Under the pieces are notes generated by a model. That model did not search any database. It was not told the origin of the DNA and was given only the letters and a program-made list of their open reading frames with translations. DNA of 64,000 nucleotides from the NCBI GenBank assembly GCA_017484095.1, contig JAFUTU010000038.1:1-64000 (forward strand), written 5' to 3'. Origin of the DNA: Ruminococcus sp. Its GTDB lineage: Bacteria; Bacillota; Clostridia; Oscillospirales; Ruminococcaceae. The translations under genes and the position numbers were made by a program. This document shows, piece by piece, positions 7,489 to 63,828 of this stretch; position 1 is the stretch's first letter, and each line of letters starts with the position of its first letter.

Positions 7489-7605
7489 GGCAGCAAGCTT
7501 ATCACTACTGATCTCAAGGCTGCGGACACCAATGATGACAAAAAAATCAATGCAACTGATCTTTTGGCGATGAAAGCACATATCAAAGGTATGAAGCCGC
7601 TTTAG
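7489..7605 (+). pseudogene. Dockerin C-terminal remnant
   Basis: This frame ends with a second dockerin calcium-binding repeat: AADTNDDKKINATDLLAM then KAHIKGMKPL and stop. It closely matches the last residues of the intact leucine-rich-repeat dockerin gene ending at 12260 (INATDLLKMKAHMKG). No start codon with a ribosome site and no catalytic or signal-peptide portion lies upstream; repeat family A abuts it instead. It is best read as the 3' stub of a dockerin gene lost by deletion or insertion. Confidence 0.7.
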
Positions 7606-7830: not shown

Positions 7831-10056
7831 ATGAAGAAGGCTTTAAGTGCGTTTCTTGCGGCTGCTCTGGCTGTAAGTGCGGTACCTGCTTTTTCTGTAT
7901 CTGCTGAGGAGCTTGATTCTAACTACATAGTTACGTTCACGCCTAACAAGACTACTGCAGTACCTGGTGATACGATTACGTACACTGCTTCGGTAGAAGT
8001 TAAGGGCAATGGTGGACTGAGTGGAACTGTATTTTGGTTCAACGTTCCTGATGGACTTACATATGTAAAGAAGGCAGGAAAGACTCAGGGCTACACAGTG
8101 CTCGAGGACAATATCGCTGATAGATTCGGCGAAGAGTACTATGTTGGCGAGGATGACTATACTGCTGCTCAGCCTACGGGTTTTGTTCTTCTTACGATCG
8201 AAGGCGATGTTGGCGAGAACGGTGTCATGGGTGTTGACTCACCTATAGAAAAGCTTGATCTGTTCACGTTTGACTGTAAAGTTGACGATGATGCTGCTTC
8301 CGGAGATTACAGTATCGAGTTCTTATTAGGTGACGATGATCCTGACTGCGTTACTACCTGTGAGAAGTATGATGATGATTTTACTGGTGTTATACCGATA
8401 ACCAACTCACCGGCTGTTAAGGTAGCAGCTAAATCTGTTGATGCTACAGGCATCACAGCTGACGGTACAATGAGTCTTGGCAAGCACGACGAGAAGAAGA
8501 ACGTTAACGCTAAGCTTCAGCCTGAGGACGCTACCGATACTATCGAGTACAGCGTTGATGGCGACGGCAGCAAGTATGTTACAGTTGACAAAGACGGTAA
8601 CGTAACAGCTGTTGCTGACGGTGTAGCTAAGATCATCTCAACGGCTTCAAAGGCCGGTTTCAAAGCTACTACTACTGTAACTGTTAAGATCGTTCATGAG
8701 CTCGAGGCAGTAGCGGAAGTTCCTGCAACCTGCACAGCTGAGGGTACAGAGGCTTACTACAAGTGTAAAGTTTGCGGTAACCTGTATTCAGATGCAGAGG
8801 GCAAGAACCTGATCTCGAACCCTGTTACTATCCCGAAGACTGCACACACTATCGTTCCGGTAGCTGCTAAGGATCCTACCTGCTTAGAGGCAGGCACAGC
8901 TGCAGCATATCAGTGCTCAGTTTGTAAGAAGTACTTCTCTGATGCAGCAGGCACAACTGAGATCGCAGCTCCAACAACTAAACCGGCTCTCGGTCATGAC
9001 TGGGGCGAGTGGACAGTAACAACTCCTGCTACCTGCGCTGAGGAAGGCGAAGAGACAAGAGTATGTGCAAGAGACAAGTCTCACATTGAGACAAGACCTA
9101 TCGCTAAGCTTACAACTCATACCCCCGGTGAACCCACCAAGGAGAATGAGGTTGCAGCTACTTGCGGTACAGACGGCAGCTATGATCTTGTGACCAAGTG
9201 TACAGTATGCGGTCAGGTCCTCAGTACTGAGAAGGTCACAGTTCCCGCTACAGGAAACCACACTCTGAAGCACGTTGACGCAGTACCTTCCAATTGTACC
9301 GAAGAGGGCACAAAGGAATACTGGCAGTGCGAGGTTTGCAAGAAGATGTTCTCTGACGCAGACGCAAAGAATGAGATCACAGGCGCTGAAAAGGTTGCAG
9401 CTTTGGGTCACACGCCGGGCGAAGTAGTTATTGAGAACGAGGTAGCAGCTACCTGCGGTACAGACGGCAGCTACGACGAAGTTATCTACTGCACGGTTTG
9501 CAATCAGGAGATCGACAGAAAGACTATCCTTGTAAAGGCTACAGGCGACCATACTCTGGAAGATGTAGAGGCTAAGGCAGCTACTTGCACAGAGGACGGA
9601 AACCTCGCTTACAAGAAGTGCTCGGTTTGCGGCAAGATATTCGAGACCGACGGTACCACTGAGACAACTCTCGAGGCTGTAACTCTTAAGGCTACAGGCC
9701 ACGATTGGGGCGAGTGGGAAGTTGTAACTGAGGCTACTGAGACTACAGACGGTCTCAAGAAGAGAGTTTGCAAGAATGATGCTACTCACGTTGAGGAGGA
9801 GAAGATCCCCGCAACAGGTACAACAGTTGTTGACGACAGCAGCTCGAGCGAAGTTGTTGATGAGTCTTCAAGTGACGCATCCAGTGATACAAGCTCTGAC
9901 ACAAGCTCTAAGGATACTTCAAGCAAGGCGTCTGACAGCAGCAAGGCAGCAGCTAGCGGCTCTACCACTAACCCCGGTACAGGTGCAGCAGCCGGCACAA
10001 TTGCAGCAGGCATTGCAGTTCTGGCAGCTCTCGCAGTTGTAAAGAAGAAGAAGTAA
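7831..10056 (+). CDS. Large NPGTG-anchored surface protein with cohesin-like and Big_2-like domains and Cys-pair repeats
   Basis: The product has 741 residues. A signal peptide (1-25, ending SVSAEE) precedes a cohesin-like beta domain (about 28-200; starts with the typical PGDTITYTASVEV pattern). A bacterial Ig-like Big_2 segment follows (about 205-290). Then come at least five repeats built around CTAEGT...YKCKVCG...FSDA, each with a CxxC pair. A Ser-rich spacer and the sorting-type tail NPGTG (residue about 714), hydrophobic stretch and KKKK end the protein. It is exported and probably sortase-linked to peptidoglycan. The cohesin-like call is moderate; it could be another adhesin domain. 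Terminator at 10074. Confidence 0.8.
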   Translation: MKKALSAFLAAALAVSAVPAFSVSAEELDSNYIVTFTPNKTTAVPGDTITYTASVEVKGNGGLSGTVFWFNVPDGLTYVKKAGKTQGYTVLEDNIADRFGEEYYVGEDDYTAAQPTGFVLLTIEGDVGENGVMGVDSPIEKLDLFTFDCKVDDDAASGDYSIEFLLGDDDPDCVTTCEKYDDDFTGVIPITNSPAVKVAAKSVDATGITADGTMSLGKHDEKKNVNAKLQPEDATDTIEYSVDGDGSKYVTVDKDGNVTAVADGVAKIISTASKAGFKATTTVTVKIVHELEAVAEVPATCTAEGTEAYYKCKVCGNLYSDAEGKNLISNPVTIPKTAHTIVPVAAKDPTCLEAGTAAAYQCSVCKKYFSDAAGTTEIAAPTTKPALGHDWGEWTVTTPATCAEEGEETRVCARDKSHIETRPIAKLTTHTPGEPTKENEVAATCGTDGSYDLVTKCTVCGQVLSTEKVTVPATGNHTLKHVDAVPSNCTEEGTKEYWQCEVCKKMFSDADAKNEITGAEKVAALGHTPGEVVIENEVAATCGTDGSYDEVIYCTVCNQEIDRKTILVKATGDHTLEDVEAKAATCTEDGNLAYKKCSVCGKIFETDGTTETTLEAVTLKATGHDWGEWEVVTEATETTDGLKKRVCKNDATHVEEEKIPATGTTVVDDSSSSEVVDESSSDASSDTSSDTSSKDTSSKASDSSKAAASGSTTNPGTGAAAGTIAAGIAVLAALAVVKKKK

Positions 10057-10225: not shown

Positions 10226-10277
10226 TTTTGTGTATGAAAACGGCTTTGCCGAGTGAATGACTATGGAGGTATGCAGT

Positions 10278-12260
10278 ATGAAAAAAAGAATAGCTGCCTG
10301 TGTGCTGGCAGCTGCAATGGTAGTCGGCAGCGTTGGACTGCCAAACGGCGCCTTTTCCGGAGCTTTCAGCGGTAATTCGATAGTGGCTGAGGCAGTCACA
10401 TCGGGCAATTATAAGTATACTCAGACTGCTTCTGGCGAGTGCAGACTGACGGGCTTTGTCGAGCTACCGTCCAATCTGGTAATACCTGCTCAGATAGACG
10501 GACTAAAGGTGACTGCATTCAGCGGAAATGCTGTACTATGGCTCGGAAAAGACAAAACGGCAGTTACAAGTGTTACTGTGTCTGAGGGTATAACCGCTAT
10601 AAATGCTTCTATGTTCAAGGATTTCACTAATCTTTCGAGCGTTACCCTGCCTTCCTCGCTCACAAGCATTGGTGAGGGTGCATTTACAAATACTGCGATA
10701 GTTAATAATCAAAGCGGCCTTAAATATGTCGGCAACTGGCTTGTTGCCGCTGATACGAGCATCACATCGGCAAGCATAAGGTCTGGCACTGTGGGTATTG
10801 CAACAACCGCTTTTAACAACTGCTCGAAGCTTACCTCAGTAACTATTCCCAACAGTGTTCAGTACGTAGGTGACAGCGTATTTAACGGTTGTACTTCGCT
10901 TACATCAGCTGATCTCTCATCTATGACTAAGATACCTGACGGACTGTTCTCAGGCTGCAGCAGCCTGAATAACGTAAAGCTTTCGTCCTCTCTCGCGGAG
11001 ATCGGCAAAGAGGCTTTCCAAGGCACAGGCTTTTCAAGCTTTGATATCCCCGATTCGGTAGTGAGTGTTGGATATAATGCATTTGACCAGACTCCGCTTC
11101 TCAGCAGCCAGAGCGGTTCATTAAAATATATTGACGGCTGGCTCGTCTATGCTGACAGCACACTCACATCTCTGAATGTTCAGGCAGGCACAGTCGGTAT
11201 AGGCGCTTGCTGCGCAGGAAATACCAAGCTTACAAGCGTGACCATACCTTCAAGTGTTAAGTATATCTCCAATGATGCGTTCCAGAGCTGTACTGCACTT
11301 ACGTCTGTTTCTTTCTCCTCGGGGCTTGAGATAATAGGTAAAGGCGCGTTCCAGGGCTGCAACAAGCTTGACACTATCGCGCTGCCGGCAACACTTAAAA
11401 CAATTAGTGACAGGGCATTTCTTAACTGCCTGAATCTGGGCTACTCAAAGGGACTTTCTATACCAAGCAGTGTAAACAGCATCGGTACGGATGCGTTTAC
11501 AGGCTGCCAGAGCATGGACGCTATCGAAGTTCTCTCGTCCAGCGCAACTATAGGCACAAGGGCATTCGGTTACTACACCACAACCGAAAAGAATACAGAT
11601 CTTATAGTAAACTGCTATAACGGCTCCACGGCACAGAGCTATGCTTCAAAGAACGGATTTACGATAAATATTCTCAGCGGCGGTTCAAGCCATGAGCATT
11701 ATTTTACTAACTGGACGATAACTACAGCAGCAACCTGTACAACTGACGGTGTTGAGACAGGCTACTGCTCCTGCGGACAGACGAGCACCAGAACGATAAC
11801 CAAGCTTGGCCATAATGTAAGCAGTACTTGGGAGGTAACTAAGGCTGCTACCTGCACGGCAACAGGCACTCAGGTTCAGAAATGTACAAGGTGCGGTGCT
11901 GTTATAAATACTGCCTCCATACCGAAGACTGCTCACACATATGCAGTAGATCATGTTGTAGCACCTACGGCAACAGAGCAGGGATACACTGTATATAAGT
12001 GCTCTGTCTGCGGTGCAACAAAGAATGATGATTATACACCTGCTACAGGGAAGACAGACACCCGCAAAAAGGGCGACCTCAACAACAACGGAAAGATAGA
12101 CGCAAGCGACCTTTTGCAGGTAAAGAGCCACATTAAGAAAGTAAAGCAGCTGACAGGTGACGACTTCACCTGTGCAGACATTGACGGTAACAAAGTGATA
12201 AATGCGACAGACCTGCTCAAAATGAAAGCACATATGAAAGGCGTAAGCAGAATTTGGTAA
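10278..12260 (+). CDS. Secreted BspA-like leucine-rich-repeat protein with C-terminal dockerin
   Basis: The product has 660 residues from ATG 10278 (GGAGG at 10265-10269; an upstream ATG at 10257 is too early). Signal peptide about 1-40. Residues about 60-470 hold LRR_5/BspA-type repeats (LTSVTIPNSVQYVGDSVF, TSVTIPSSVKYISNDAFQ). About 480-595 hold repeats with CxxC pairs like those of the preceding gene. The last 62 residues are a type I-like dockerin with two calcium loops: GDLNNNGKIDASDLL and ADIDGNKVINATDLL. It should be secreted and held by a cohesin, such as that in the 61033-62778 product. The LRR part probably binds host, food or cell-surface ligands. Confidence 0.9.
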   Translation: MKKRIAACVLAAAMVVGSVGLPNGAFSGAFSGNSIVAEAVTSGNYKYTQTASGECRLTGFVELPSNLVIPAQIDGLKVTAFSGNAVLWLGKDKTAVTSVTVSEGITAINASMFKDFTNLSSVTLPSSLTSIGEGAFTNTAIVNNQSGLKYVGNWLVAADTSITSASIRSGTVGIATTAFNNCSKLTSVTIPNSVQYVGDSVFNGCTSLTSADLSSMTKIPDGLFSGCSSLNNVKLSSSLAEIGKEAFQGTGFSSFDIPDSVVSVGYNAFDQTPLLSSQSGSLKYIDGWLVYADSTLTSLNVQAGTVGIGACCAGNTKLTSVTIPSSVKYISNDAFQSCTALTSVSFSSGLEIIGKGAFQGCNKLDTIALPATLKTISDRAFLNCLNLGYSKGLSIPSSVNSIGTDAFTGCQSMDAIEVLSSSATIGTRAFGYYTTTEKNTDLIVNCYNGSTAQSYASKNGFTINILSGGSSHEHYFTNWTITTAATCTTDGVETGYCSCGQTSTRTITKLGHNVSSTWEVTKAATCTATGTQVQKCTRCGAVINTASIPKTAHTYAVDHVVAPTATEQGYTVYKCSVCGATKNDDYTPATGKTDTRKKGDLNNNGKIDASDLLQVKSHIKKVKQLTGDDFTCADIDGNKVINATDLLKMKAHMKGVSRIW

Positions 12261-58769: not shown

Positions 58770-60551
58770 CTAACGGCCGCTGACCTTTCTGAATATCATA
58801 AGAGCATCGGAAACGTCTACCTTGCCGTCGCCGTTATAATCTGCTCTTGTCTTCTGCTCTGCGGTAAGGGAAGCTCTGCCTGCGGTATAGCGGTTTATCA
58901 TAAGGCCGTCTACCACGGTGAGCTTATTGTCTCCGTCAACATCGCCCTTTGTATAGGCAGGTGCTGCTTTCTGTCTGGTTATGGTCAGGGTATAAACTGA
59001 TGATGTGCCGTTTTCGGCTGTGCAGATAACGCGCAGCACATTTGCACCCGTTTTGAGCTGTACCGTTCCGAATCCAGATACGTCAGCTGCATCATACTCG
59101 CTTATCGCAGTTATCGTTACCGATGAAGTGGTATCAGGTACTGTAGCGGTATATGAATATGTTCCCTTTGTAAAAGCAGGGGAGAGCTTTGCTCCCGAAA
59201 CTGACAGGGTCTTCAGATAGCTGTTTGAGTTTCCGCTGTCTGTCGGCTTTGAGCAAGCTGTATCAGGCATATTGTCATATACGGGTATCTTAAACTCCAT
59301 AGCGCCGTTCTTTATCTCATCGGAATATGCGTTTTTCAGGCTGACAGCCTCATTTGCCTGTCCGAAAACACAGGTCATATACTGATGATAATAGAGACCG
59401 TTGCCGCCGTCTACCATATCGAATTTCTGTAAATAAAGGGTGTCCTGTCCTTTTGTGATATAGCCGTTGCCTACGAAAACAGAGCCGCCGACTATCGACC
59501 TGTACTGGTTTGTCCAGGGAAGGAGGTAGGTCGGGTTTTCTGTCTTGGCATATTTACAGCCCATTTCTGCAGCTGACATAGTTGATGTTGCATATGCCAT
59601 TACGTCAAAGAAATTGAAATAGTTCTCGTAACCTTCCACTGTTCCCAGTGACTGAGGCGCACCGTATACGCCCTGCTCATTGCGGCACCTTGACGCCAGG
59701 TGATACGGAGAAACGCCCGATATGCTTGCCGCCTTCATAAAGGTAGAGGAATACGACTTTGTCTCACCTGTATCGGGGCAGGTATAATTGCCCGACATAA
59801 ATGTGCCCTCGAGTATCTTCCTGACGCCTGATTCTGTCTGATAGGAAGGGTCATATGAGAGGTTCTCAAACATAAATATGTAGGTATCGTTTATAAAATT
59901 GCGGGGGTCCATATAATACATTATGATCTGCTTTGATGCTGCCTGCCAGTACCAGCCGTCAAGACCGTACCAATAGCCCTCGTCATAATTATATGCGCCT
60001 TTCTCCATTGATTTCCACGAATCAAGAGCCCCGTCATGCACCAGATTTCTTCCGAGAACACATTCCTGTGCTACGGCAGTGTTCCAGTCAATACCGAGCT
60101 TCTGAGCTGTGAAGGTCCAATTCGGATGAAGCGAGTGCATAGTTCTCAGATAAGGCTTGTAGCTCTCGGGAAAACCCTGAGCGGTCATATATGCCTCAAA
60201 ATCTGAGCTTGCAGCTGCAGGCGCTGCCTGAGACGCAGAGGCGCTCTGTGTCTGAGAGGAGGAAACGATATCTATGTAATTAGACGCACAGTAGCCCGTA
60301 AGCTTTCCGGCTGTTATCTTATACCAGACACCGCCTTCACTGTCCTTGGCAGAACCGATGATCGTTACCTGCTGACCTTCGGTTATCTGTCCTACCTTAG
60401 AATATTCTGTTCCCGCACCCGATCTGACATTAAGCACATCACAGGTGCATCTGCCTGTTTTGTCTGCCGCAAATGCAGACACTGCCCCGACGCTGCCCAT
60501 AACAACAAGCAGCGCCAGTGACAGCAGTATTGAGATCAATCTCCTGCTCAT
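58770..60551 (-). CDS. Secreted SH3b-glucosaminidase with cadherin-like domain and C-terminal dockerin
   Basis: The product has 593 residues from ATG 60551 (AGAGGTG upstream). Signal peptide (1-29). SH3b domain (about 32-90: CDVLNVRSGAGTEYSKVGQI). Glucosaminidase domain (about 115-420) with the conserved KAASISGVSPYHLASRCRNEQG. Cadherin-like beta-sandwich (about 448-530: LSPAFTKGTYSYTATVP). Dockerin (about 535-593: GDVDGDNKLTVVDGLMINRY and ADYNGDGKVDVSDALMIFRK). It should cut peptidoglycan glycan chains and could be held at the surface by a cohesin, possibly the one encoded at 61033. Dockerins on wall hydrolases are unusual. Confidence 0.93.
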   Translation of the reverse strand: MSRRLISILLSLALLVVMGSVGAVSAFAADKTGRCTCDVLNVRSGAGTEYSKVGQITEGQQVTIIGSAKDSEGGVWYKITAGKLTGYCASNYIDIVSSSQTQSASASQAAPAAASSDFEAYMTAQGFPESYKPYLRTMHSLHPNWTFTAQKLGIDWNTAVAQECVLGRNLVHDGALDSWKSMEKGAYNYDEGYWYGLDGWYWQAASKQIIMYYMDPRNFINDTYIFMFENLSYDPSYQTESGVRKILEGTFMSGNYTCPDTGETKSYSSTFMKAASISGVSPYHLASRCRNEQGVYGAPQSLGTVEGYENYFNFFDVMAYATSTMSAAEMGCKYAKTENPTYLLPWTNQYRSIVGGSVFVGNGYITKGQDTLYLQKFDMVDGGNGLYYHQYMTCVFGQANEAVSLKNAYSDEIKNGAMEFKIPVYDNMPDTACSKPTDSGNSNSYLKTLSVSGAKLSPAFTKGTYSYTATVPDTTSSVTITAISEYDAADVSGFGTVQLKTGANVLRVICTAENGTSSVYTLTITRQKAAPAYTKGDVDGDNKLTVVDGLMINRYTAGRASLTAEQKTRADYNGDGKVDVSDALMIFRKVSGR

Positions 60552-60841
60552 TTCACTAACACCTCTTGGGATCTCCGACATTTTTACACAAGCTTTTGTA
60601 CATTTTTTTGTCTTTAGTACAAAAGATTACACTTATTATATTCAATCGCGAGGCGTTTGTCAAGAGGATTTTTATTAACAAAAAATTTACATATGAATAT
60701 TCTGGCAAGATTTTAAAATATTACAATTTGATTACAATACATTTTGTGGCCTGTCCCGAAATTCACCCATATATCTAGTGATTGCACTTTTTTACGAAAA
60801 AAATAGCCAAATTTTTTGCCTTAAATTCGCTGTTTTGACTA

Positions 60842-60870
60842 TTGACGACATATATTAAATAGGTTATAAT
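60842..60870 (+). promoter_or_regulatory. Sigma-A promoter of the cohesin protein gene
   Basis: TTGACG at 60842-60847 and TATAAT at 60865-60870, spacer 17. Upstream, 60552-60841 is A+T-rich and shows no gene. Confidence 0.82.
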
Positions 60871-61032: not shown

Positions 61033-62778
61033 ATGAAGAGACTTAGAGTATGCAAGCCTGCGCTCGGAGCTGCAACGGCATTTCTTATGGTATCGTCGGT
61101 AATATCGATGGCGGCATCTGCTTCGGGCACGAATGAGATAAAGCTCAGGGCTGACAAGACTTCTGCCAATGCAGGAGACACCATAAATGTTACGGCGTCT
61201 ATAGCTCCTGACAAGACAGGTGTTGCGGGCTTTACCTTTGATATACATTTTGACCCTAACGATGTTGAGGTATATATACCTACTGATGATGAGCTTGGCG
61301 GAAAGTACAGTCTTGAGTCTGAGTATTCTGTCATTACCAATTACAGTGCCACCGAGGCATCTGTGAAGGTGGTGGGAGCTAACCTAAAGGGTGCGAACGT
61401 TACATCCGAAAGCGATGTGGCAATTGCAACATTCGTAGTTAAAGACGGTAATGACGGCAAGGCAGATTTCTGGATAGAGGTAGACACTCTTATAAAGGAG
61501 AGCGGAGAGGACTATGTTTCCGCAAGCTACAGCGCACCTACCAAGGCAAAGCCGATGGGTGTAAATATAGTTAAGGCTGAGGAGACTAAGGCTCCTGAGA
61601 CTACTACCACTACAGAGGCAACTACCAAGGCAACAACAAAGGCCACTACCACTAAGGCGACGACCACTACTACGACTACCACAACAACTACTACCACTAC
61701 AACTACAACAACTGCTCCCGAGACAGCTTATGAGACTGAGACCGAGAGCACTACCACGTCAGCTGCGCCTGTAGTTACCGAGGCGCCCGTTGTTACTTCG
61801 GCGGCACCTCAGACAACTCAGCTCACACTGACCACTACAAAGAAAAATTACGTAGTTACAGCGGCTCCTGCTGAGGAGGCTGCACAGAGCGAGAAGAAAA
61901 ACTATGTTGTAGAGAACACCGAAGAGACTGCTACTCCTGCGGAGGAGAGCGCTCAGACACAGAACGAGCAGACCGAACCCGTCAATATGAACGAGACTGC
62001 AAAGGCACTGTTTGACTATGTAGCAGGAGCAACAGGCTTTAACAGTGAAGAGACAGTTCAGTACAGCTTCAGGCTTTCGGATCATATCAGCGATTATTCA
62101 CAGAACTATGATATCAAGGTAAATATCGACACATCAGGCACTGTAAACGGTGCTGTAGGCGCAATGAGAGACGGTGAGTGGTCAAGCGAGCCTGCAAAGA
62201 CCTACGGTGACACCGAGGACAGCTGGACCTATGAGAACGTTGACCCAAACAACACCAGCGATCAGATATTTGTTCAGCTTTATTCGCTGAGTGCAAACGC
62301 TGAGTTCGAGATCGAGTCGATCGATATTATACCTGTCGGTTCTCATGAGTCGGCAGCGCACATCACTGCTGATGAGACTGCAGCTGTAGGTGAGACCGTC
62401 GCTGTAGACATCACAGAGGCAGTTGGCAAGACTGAGCCTGTGGAAAACGGCTCAGCGACTGTGCCTGTTGAGAGCAAAGAAGAAGCTAACACACAGACAG
62501 ACGATACACAGTCTCAGCTTAAGAGCGAGACTGAGGTCAAGACACAGCCCGTTATCAGCAACCCCGAAAGCGTTGCCGCGACCGAGGCGAAGGTAGCTGA
62601 GATGGAATCCTCGGCTGCTGAAAAAGACGCAGCAGCTGCTGCTGACAGCAAGAAAAATCCGAACACGGGCATTACAACAGTAAGAATGTTACTTACTGTT
62701 GCAGCTCTCGGAGAGATATTCTTTTCACTCTTCGTAGTCTTTTATAACAGATACATCTACAAAGACGACGAGGAATGA
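61033..62778 (+). CDS. Cell-surface single-cohesin protein with NPNTG anchor (scaffoldin-like)
   Basis: The product has 581 residues with AGGAGGA upstream. Signal peptide (1-31). Cohesin domain (about 34-180: NAGDTINVTASIAP, VAGFTFDIHFDPNDVEV, ATFVVKDGNDGKADFWI). Long Thr linker (about 189-260). A second beta-rich, CBM-like domain (about 318-437: YSFRLSDHISDYSQNYDIKV). Acidic spacer, then NPNTG (about 542), a hydrophobic helix and YIYKDDEE tail. KKNYVV occurs twice in the linker. It probably anchors dockerin proteins to the wall through sortase. Candidate partners are encoded at 10278 and 58770. Confidence 0.9.
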   Translation: MKRLRVCKPALGAATAFLMVSSVISMAASASGTNEIKLRADKTSANAGDTINVTASIAPDKTGVAGFTFDIHFDPNDVEVYIPTDDELGGKYSLESEYSVITNYSATEASVKVVGANLKGANVTSESDVAIATFVVKDGNDGKADFWIEVDTLIKESGEDYVSASYSAPTKAKPMGVNIVKAEETKAPETTTTTEATTKATTKATTTKATTTTTTTTTTTTTTTTTTAPETAYETETESTTTSAAPVVTEAPVVTSAAPQTTQLTLTTTKKNYVVTAAPAEEAAQSEKKNYVVENTEETATPAEESAQTQNEQTEPVNMNETAKALFDYVAGATGFNSEETVQYSFRLSDHISDYSQNYDIKVNIDTSGTVNGAVGAMRDGEWSSEPAKTYGDTEDSWTYENVDPNNTSDQIFVQLYSLSANAEFEIESIDIIPVGSHESAAHITADETAAVGETVAVDITEAVGKTEPVENGSATVPVESKEEANTQTDDTQSQLKSETEVKTQPVISNPESVAATEAKVAEMESSAAEKDAAAAADSKKNPNTGITTVRMLLTVAALGEIFFSLFVVFYNRYIYKDDEE

Positions 62779-62835: not shown

Positions 62836-63828
62836 CTATCCTTCTGATGAGCTGTCTTCAGCCTGTGAGGAGCTGTCATCATAGTGTATGGGCTCTGTTT
62901 CAAGTCCCTGATCGTTAGTCTGTTCAGCTCTCTCGGTAAGGTCAGCGAGCATTTTTTCAAGGGTCTTCATGCTTTTTTCGTAGTTTTCCTGCATCGTCTC
63001 TTTTGAGTCGCCGAAAGTTGTAGTAGGGTACCTCATAGAAAGATGAACATCGTTAGGCATATTCTCAAATCTCAGCTCCTCGGCCAGAAATCCGAAGTTC
63101 AGGCTCAGACCGTCCTCGTCGATGTATTTGCTGTCAGGGAATCTTGACGGAAGAGTCGGATCCATAAGCTGCATAAATTCTTCGTCAGTGTTCGAGTCTG
63201 TGATGAAAAGAATGTCCTTTCCTTCCTGAAGGGCAGCCAGCAGCTTTGTGTTATCGGGGTCCTGTCCGAGATATCTTGATGTGTTCGGTCCCTGCGGAGC
63301 CATTATCACATCAACGTGTACATAGCCGTTGCCGTCAAGGTCTTCCGTATATTTTTCAAAGAACTCCTCAAGCTCCGCGTTTCTTGTCTCTAAGCCGTTA
63401 TTTGATATAACAACGACCGTAAGGTCAGCCTTTTCGCGCCTGAAAGTATCTATCAGGATAAAGATGAATGCCGCAAGCATAAACACGATGAAAATTATCA
63501 TAAATTTGTAGTGATATACAAAATTTGCGAGCCATGCCTTTCCGTGGAGCACTGTCTTTTCTTCGTGCTCTTCTTTGATAGTGGCCTCATCTTCATCTAT
63601 AACTCCTGATTTGAGCTTCATAAGCTCCAGCCGTTCACGTTTTAGCCTTTCCTCACGTTCCTTTTCGGCAAGCTTTTCAAGACGCTTCTTTTCTGCAAGC
63701 TGCTGCTCGTAAAGCTCCCTCTCGCGTTGTCTGGCAGCTCGTTCCTGATCGGCTAAGCTTTTTTCATATTCGTAATCTTCATCATCTATCAGGTTATCAC
63801 CTGTCTGGATGCCTTTTTTCTTTGACAA
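62836..63828 (-). CDS. Coiled-coil membrane protein with extracytoplasmic domain
   Basis: The product has 330 residues with a TTG start after GAGGGATAAAA. Cytoplasmic N-terminus with a highly charged coiled coil (about 20-75: RQRERELYEQQLAEKKRLEK). One membrane helix (about 108-128: FMIIFIVFMLAAFIFILI). An outside domain follows (about 133-305: DLTVVVISNNGLETRNAELE and DILFITDSN) that looks like an alpha/beta binding fold. A Ser/Asp tail ends it. No family recognised; function unknown. Confidence 0.75.
   Translation of the reverse strand: MSKKKGIQTGDNLIDDEDYEYEKSLADQERAARQRERELYEQQLAEKKRLEKLAEKEREERLKRERLELMKLKSGVIDEDEATIKEEHEEKTVLHGKAWLANFVYHYKFMIIFIVFMLAAFIFILIDTFRREKADLTVVVISNNGLETRNAELEEFFEKYTEDLDGNGYVHVDVIMAPQGPNTSRYLGQDPDNTKLLAALQEGKDILFITDSNTDEEFMQLMDPTLPSRFPDSKYIDEDGLSLNFGFLAEELRFENMPNDVHLSMRYPTTTFGDSKETMQENYEKSMKTLEKMLADLTERAEQTNDQGLETEPIHYDDSSSQAEDSSSEG

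Follow-up and report, generated by a model that had tools for sequence, protein, structure and literature searches.

Within the window, by which we mean the whole stretch of 64,000 nucleotides of Ruminococcus sp. DNA that was analysed, two intact genes diverge from a common intergenic region, one encoding a single-cohesin protein with a C-terminal sorting motif and the other a dockerin-bearing glucosaminidase (Table 1). Their called starts lie 451 bp apart, a figure that corrects the 480 bases given in the original prediction. The window also encodes a leucine-rich repeat protein with a C-terminal dockerin and, directly upstream of it, a second protein carrying a putative wall anchor.

Table 1. 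Features of the window discussed in the text, with positions counted from its first nucleotide
Feature	Position	Strand	Basis
Protein with NPGTG anchor motif; N-terminal domain (7921-8436) of cohesin-like predicted fold; Big_2 and repeats	7831-10056	+	Pfam, NCBIfam, AF2
LRR_5 (BspA-type) protein; C-terminal dockerin at 12069-12233, code AS/KS + AT/KA	10257-12260	+	Pfam, code scoring
SH3b-glucosaminidase-cadherin-like-dockerin protein, putative wall hydrolase, 603 aa	58770-60581	-	Pfam; PDB match to glucosaminidases of AtlA, AtlE and SagB type; architecture recurs in other genera
Hydrolase dockerin; residues VV/NR + VS/FR at positions 10,11/17,18	58782-58949	-	Pfam Dockerin_1, 41 bits
Cadherin-like domain	58971-59210	-	Pfam, 1.4e-8
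Glucosaminidase catalytic region, residues 125-455, putative catalytic E302	59217-60209	-	PDB match; orthologues
SH3_3 domain, residues 48-103	60273-60440	-	Pfam, 1.3e-14
Promoter toward hydrolase, TTGACA-17-TATAAT, perfect	60635-60663	-	Promoter comparison across 22 loci
Promoter toward cohesin gene, TTGACG-17-TATAAT	60842-60870	+	Promoter comparison across 22 loci
Single-cohesin protein, predicted wall-anchored, 581 aa	61033-62778	+	Pfam, genome search, AF2 + Foldseek, 27 orthologous loci
Cohesin domain, residues 32-180	61126-61572	+	Pfam, AF2, Foldseek, PDB profile matches
Second conserved beta-sandwich, residues 322-445, possibly carbohydrate-binding-module-like	61996-62367	+	AF2 pLDDT about 91; weak profile match
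NPNTG sorting motif, residues 542-546, then TM and charged tail	62656-62670	+	Genus alignment

Architecture of the divergent pair

The cohesin protein consists of a signal peptide, the cohesin, a T/P-rich linker, a beta-sandwich domain, an S/T/E linker, the NPNTG motif, a transmembrane segment and a charged tail. A Pfam scan of the whole protein missed the cohesin, which was found when the N-terminal part was scanned alone (PF00963, 35.5 bits against a cut-off of 24.1) and in a six-frame search of the genome (35.8 bits). The AF2 model contains two confident domains, the first of which (pLDDT about 88) retrieved almost exclusively cohesins from the PDB with Foldseek, including types I and II, the cohesin-like modules of C. 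perfringens and R. flavefaciens ScaC. Profile matches to PDB entries agree (3l8q, 8.7e-9; ScaC 5lxv, 4.5e-5), and the jelly-roll cohesin fold together with a score above the curated cut-off places the domain in PF00963. The second confident domain is kept in 26 of the 27 cohesin orthologues. Pfam recognized nothing in it, and its weak profile match to the R. flavefaciens structures 5aot/5fu2 of CBM74-RfGH5 (E 0.017-0.07) gained nothing from a larger alignment.

Across the genus alignment the NPNTG motif is almost invariant, and one sortase gene was found in the genome, from which we infer that the protein is covalently attached to the wall. A recognizable anchor motif is missing in four orthologues (G326, G020, G124 and G272); that of G326 is cut by a contig end and the G020 reading frame is short, so the genuine exceptions are G124 and G272. 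The cohesin on an NPNTG anchor that had been proposed from the first reading of the window is in this way borne out.

The same is true of the dockerin on an SH3b-glucosaminidase on the opposite strand, for which Pfam recognizes both SH3_3 and Dockerin_1 and the catalytic region matches glucosaminidase structures of the AtlA, AtlE and SagB types (6fxo, 4.6e-9). Residue E302 aligns with a Glu of S. aureus AtlA, and the NCBIfam SagB model scores 33.6 bits, under its cut-off. The catalytic domain is homologous to those of GH73-like N-acetylglucosaminidases such as AtlA and SagB, and the enzyme probably cleaves peptidoglycan. The solved relatives of the SagB/AtlA type are not known to be dockerin proteins and are retained by other means. 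The dockerin itself is of type I (PF00404, 41 to 46 bits), has both EF-hand-like calcium loops intact and is preceded by the cadherin-like domain, not by an X module.

Conservation and co-occurrence

Of 27 loci with a cohesin orthologue, 22 show the divergent arrangement; they span at least five genera, and the two genes are separated by gaps of 219-575 bp. At the level of the genus, 13 genomes, the present one included, encode an orthologous cohesin protein, and 12 of them have the divergent dockerin-glucosaminidase (gaps 404-575 bp); profile searches in other genera of the family added 14 cohesin loci, ten of them with a divergent hydrolase. Because the pair is conserved at 22 loci, the two genes have not come together by chance, and they form a conserved module. 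The promoters are retained as well: toward the hydrolase, TTGACA-17/18-TATAAT matches the consensus at 12 of 12 positions in 21 of the 22 pair loci, and the promoter toward the cohesin gene matches at no fewer than 10 of 12 positions in 19 of them. The outer neighbours of the pair differ among loci; SpoIIP adjoins the hydrolase at four pair loci (G000, G019, G026 and G022), and the gene at 62836 is found at two.

Among 299 genomes of the family, a close hydrolase orthologue is present in 15, a strong cohesin in 16, and the two occur together in 13 (Fisher p about 3e-18, a value in which relatedness is not corrected for). All 15 close hydrolase orthologues bear a dockerin; nine more distant glucosaminidases show none, some of their reading frames being cut by the edge of the sequence stretch. 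In five genomes (G016, G003, G341, G272 and G326) Pfam detects a single dockerin. For G016 (2 contigs, 99% complete) and G003 (99%) this sole dockerin is on the hydrolase, and the sole cohesin over the cut-off (52-53 bits) adjoins it; cohesins per genome were counted for these two. The single dockerin of each of the other three is consistent with the one on its hydrolase. G016 is an R. bicirculans-like genome that we take to be, most likely, R. bicirculans 80/3.

The exceptions run in both directions. Four genomes have the cohesin without the hydrolase. G028 and G218 have kept the cohesin, lack the hydrolase and contain no Pfam-detectable dockerin at all, while at the loci of G237 and G303 the interval separating the cohesin gene from leuC does not contain the hydrolase that G016 has there. 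In G124 both genes are present but not adjacent. Conversely, six R. albus-like genomes and G178 retain the hydrolase and its dockerin in the absence of the orthologous cohesin; one of the six, G023, is presumably R. albus 7. In another R. albus-like genome, G024 (L131 6947-9898), the cohesin gene alone is gone and its usual flanking genes are present. R. albus has been described as cohesin-deficient with many dockerins (PMC4081043), and losses such as that in G024 could help explain its orphan dockerins. Since genomes exist with either gene alone, the dependence between cohesin and hydrolase is strong, not absolute.

Dockerin repertoire and recognition codes

A genome-wide list of cohesins and dockerins, which the original prediction had called for, was drawn up for the 2.31 Mb assembly, whose closest relatives with a name are Ruminococcus MAGs from the rumen. 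Two cohesins pass the Pfam cut-off; of dockerins there are ten complete copies and a remnant consisting of half of one. The dockerins are carried by GH25, GH26 and GH5 enzymes, a transglutaminase-like protein (assigned by eye, with no Pfam match), three LRR_5 proteins, a protein of 1,080 residues, a fragment at a contig edge and the hydrolase; as these carriers include GH25, GH26 and GH5 enzymes, the dockerin cargo is not limited to non-glycosidases. The second cohesin is also single, is followed by a C-terminal transmembrane segment and adjoins glmS (L014 8856-9959, G000:C10). An apparent counterpart of it in G001 (L197 4090-7427, G001:C122) is followed by a reading frame of 737 codons with three Pfam cohesin matches. 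The gene for the GH25 (lysozyme-type) dockerin protein lies about 5 kb from the sole sortase gene found (L015 / G000:C6). Both cohesin proteins being single, no multi-cohesin scaffoldin was detected in the genome, a result that covers detectable cohesins only, given that divergent ones can escape Pfam (PMC11557425), as the N-terminal domain of the NPGTG protein may illustrate; within the same bounds, the genome has no cellulosome built on a primary scaffoldin.

The recognition code was taken as positions 10, 11, 17 and 18 of each dockerin repeat. Eight of the nine other complete dockerins of the genome were scored, seven by script and that of GH26 by eye, and all eight are of the AS/KS type, in contrast to the VV/NR + VS/FR of the hydrolase dockerin. 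In G014 the other scored dockerins are TA/NS-like, and in G022 and G026 they are mostly T-x/K-K-like (TD/KK), whereas the hydrolase dockerins of these three genomes remain VV/LR or VT/MR. In most of the genus, then, the code of the hydrolase dockerins stays V/I-x / hydrophobic-R/K while that of the others drifts; in other genera the code of the hydrolase dockerin differs. In each genome examined the hydrolase dockerin is, by these residues, distinct from the rest. In addition, distances between cohesins correlate with those between hydrolase dockerins when the catalytic domain is controlled for (partial Mantel, partial r 0.58, p 3e-4), against 0.10-0.23 for comparable control domain pairs. The control is imperfect, since one half of the catalytic domain still gives 0.65 with the cohesin when the other half is controlled for and shared phylogeny is not fully removed, and the apparent excess of co-divergence over that of control domains is taken here as supportive only.

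The LRR-dockerin protein, which had also been foreseen, is indeed present; its reading frame starts at 10257, and the position first given, 10278, is a second ATG. Its dockerin belongs to the main dockerin class of the genome, which is common to the GH5, GH26 and GH25 dockerins. On the NPGTG protein encoded directly upstream, NCBIfam Rumino_NPXTG scores 22.0 bits against a cut-off of 23.5, and Pfam recognized no cohesin in the N-terminal domain. The AF2 model of this domain is of moderate quality (pLDDT 62, pTM 0.63), and its best PDB matches are mostly cohesins, with TM-scores about 0.5. Relatives of the protein are encoded beside dockerin genes in G001 and, in both G022 and G026, beside argS and genes for LRR-dockerin proteins. 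On this modelled fold the NPGTG protein is a candidate for binding dockerins of the main class. In G022 and G026 a domain of the same type is also found fused to a dockerin, in an adaptor-scaffoldin-like arrangement (L193 834-2696, L194 4471-6099). Directly upstream of the NPGTG gene, at 7501-7584 on the forward strand, lies a pseudogene remnant, the second half of a dockerin of the main class outside any gene.

A platform shared by the anchored cohesin and the LRR protein was considered and is not supported, given the differing recognition codes and the LRR gene having its own neighbour in the NPGTG protein. Most simply read, the window seems to contain two anchor-dockerin modules that are separate from each other. 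Of the docking platform originally proposed, a wall-remodelling cargo and the departure from a classic cellulase scaffold are supported, and the conserved pair and the sole dockerin of several genomes make the link between hydrolase and cohesin far firmer than could be seen from the window by itself; the part that gave the platform several kinds of protein, the LRR protein among them, is not supported, in view of AS/KS against VV/NR and the candidate cohesin-fold neighbour.

Proposed tether and known systems

We favour, with a probability of about 0.7, the view that the cohesin protein is dedicated to tethering a peptidoglycan hydrolase through its single cohesin. The sortase-anchored protein would fix one cohesin to the cell wall through a long flexible linker, and the dockerin of the hydrolase would plug into it, presumably in a calcium-dependent manner. 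The secreted enzyme would thereby be held at the surface of its own producer, where its most likely role would be wall remodelling or daughter-cell separation. The observations behind this view are the two architectures, the divergent linkage, the promoters, the co-occurrence, the sole dockerins, the distinct code and the co-divergence. Against it, the SH3b domain alone could hold the enzyme at the wall.

Other explanations have to be weighed against the tether. The anchored cohesin might be a general platform that takes all the dockerins of the genome, those of the LRR, GH5, GH26, GH25 and transglutaminase-like proteins as well as that of the hydrolase. Partners are scarce, with two cohesins over the Pfam cut-off for ten complete dockerins, and R. 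flavefaciens ScaE is an example of a single anchored cohesin able to take several dockerins (PMC5301203). Such a platform is nevertheless unlikely, because the recognition residues of the hydrolase dockerin are unlike the rest in each genome examined, the cohesin is conserved even in genomes without any other dockerin, and a second anchored protein of cohesin-like fold stands beside the LRR-dockerin gene; moreover, most LRR dockerins of R. flavefaciens bound no cohesin tested (PMC5301203).

The conservation of the pair in genomes without other dockerins also suggests a housekeeping function, as do the near-consensus promoters of vegetative type on both genes, and this bears on a different proposal, namely that the tethered glucosaminidase digests the peptidoglycan of other bacteria, as a weapon or for foraging, and not the wall of its producer. 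A long flexible linker could let a secreted glucosaminidase extend outward, and the second beta-sandwich, given its weak match to a carbohydrate-binding module, might bind a foreign polysaccharide; but no recurring toxin- or immunity-like genes were seen around the pair at the conserved loci inspected, and we regard this use as quite improbable. Least probable among the alternatives is that the genes are linked without their products interacting, both being surface proteins of one regulon while the hydrolase dockerin binds another cohesin. The R. albus-like genomes and G178, which lack this cohesin but retain the hydrolase dockerin, would fit such a scheme. It is opposed by G016 and G003, in which this is the only cohesin to pass the cut-off, by the specific co-divergence of cohesin and dockerin, and by the complete lack of dockerins in two of the genomes without the hydrolase at the locus.

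The proposed tether has its closest parallels in R. flavefaciens. ScaE of that species is likewise a single cohesin, sortase-anchored at the cell surface, and takes several dockerin proteins (PMC5301203, PMC2930009). ScaE binds the X-dockerin dyads of ScaB and CttA and so carries a whole cellulosome, whereas the present cohesin gene has a wall hydrolase as its neighbour. The protein differs from ScaE also in its second beta-sandwich, in coming from a genome with no detected multi-cohesin scaffoldin and in its cohesin, which is not closest to type III (the ScaE structure 2zf9 ranks 48th, the best matches being type II, C. perfringens, CaCohA2 and ScaC cohesins). The hydrolase dockerin, following a cadherin-like domain, has no X module, unlike those dyads, although the module is not an absolute requirement, as R. 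flavefaciens group-4 dockerins without it also bind ScaE (PMC5301203). On the other hand, the R. flavefaciens protein RflaF_05439 combines an NlpC/P60 module with an XDoc that binds ScaE, a binding given as unpublished (PMC3573020). It resembles the docking proposed for our pair in placing a relative of peptidoglycan-cleaving enzymes on an anchored single cohesin, and differs in its peptidase-like fold and in belonging to a very large cellulosome and not to a private divergent pair. In the R. bromii amylosome (Sca2, Sca5, Amy4), secreted enzymes are likewise retained at the surface by anchored cohesins, in a calcium-dependent manner (PMC5814915), with amylases as cargo, five scaffoldins and two cohesins on Sca5. 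A search of the literature available without subscription found no description of this cohesin-hydrolase pair.

A broader interpretation, to which we give somewhat less than an even chance, is that cohesin and dockerin serve a housekeeping use across the family that is unrelated to fibre digestion. A private lock of one cohesin and one dockerin, inherited as a divergent pair, would keep the cell's own peptidoglycan hydrolase on the wall; larger dockerin repertoires would coexist with this lock and use anchors of their own, of the type of the NPGTG protein, and the R. albus lineage would have lost the cohesin of the pair.

Non-cellulosomal microbes have few or single cohesins with dockerins of unclear role, and R. 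albus has orphan dockerins (PMC4081043); single-cohesin proteins of unknown function are also on record (PMC11557425). Compared with these lone modules, a specific partner and a role are proposed here for one, and the pair offers a concrete cargo and a partner for the one cohesin and few dockerins that many bacteria without cellulosomes possess (PMC4081043, PMC11557425). Genomes such as the R. bicirculans-like G016, with one dockerin and one strong cohesin side by side, provide a minimal test system, and the pair, if its members bind as expected, would be a naturally orthogonal cohesin-dockerin pair. The module may represent a new way for a Gram-positive cell to control where a wall hydrolase acts, and it points to cohesin-dockerin pairs that tether the cell's own wall enzymes, beyond those that digest fibre.
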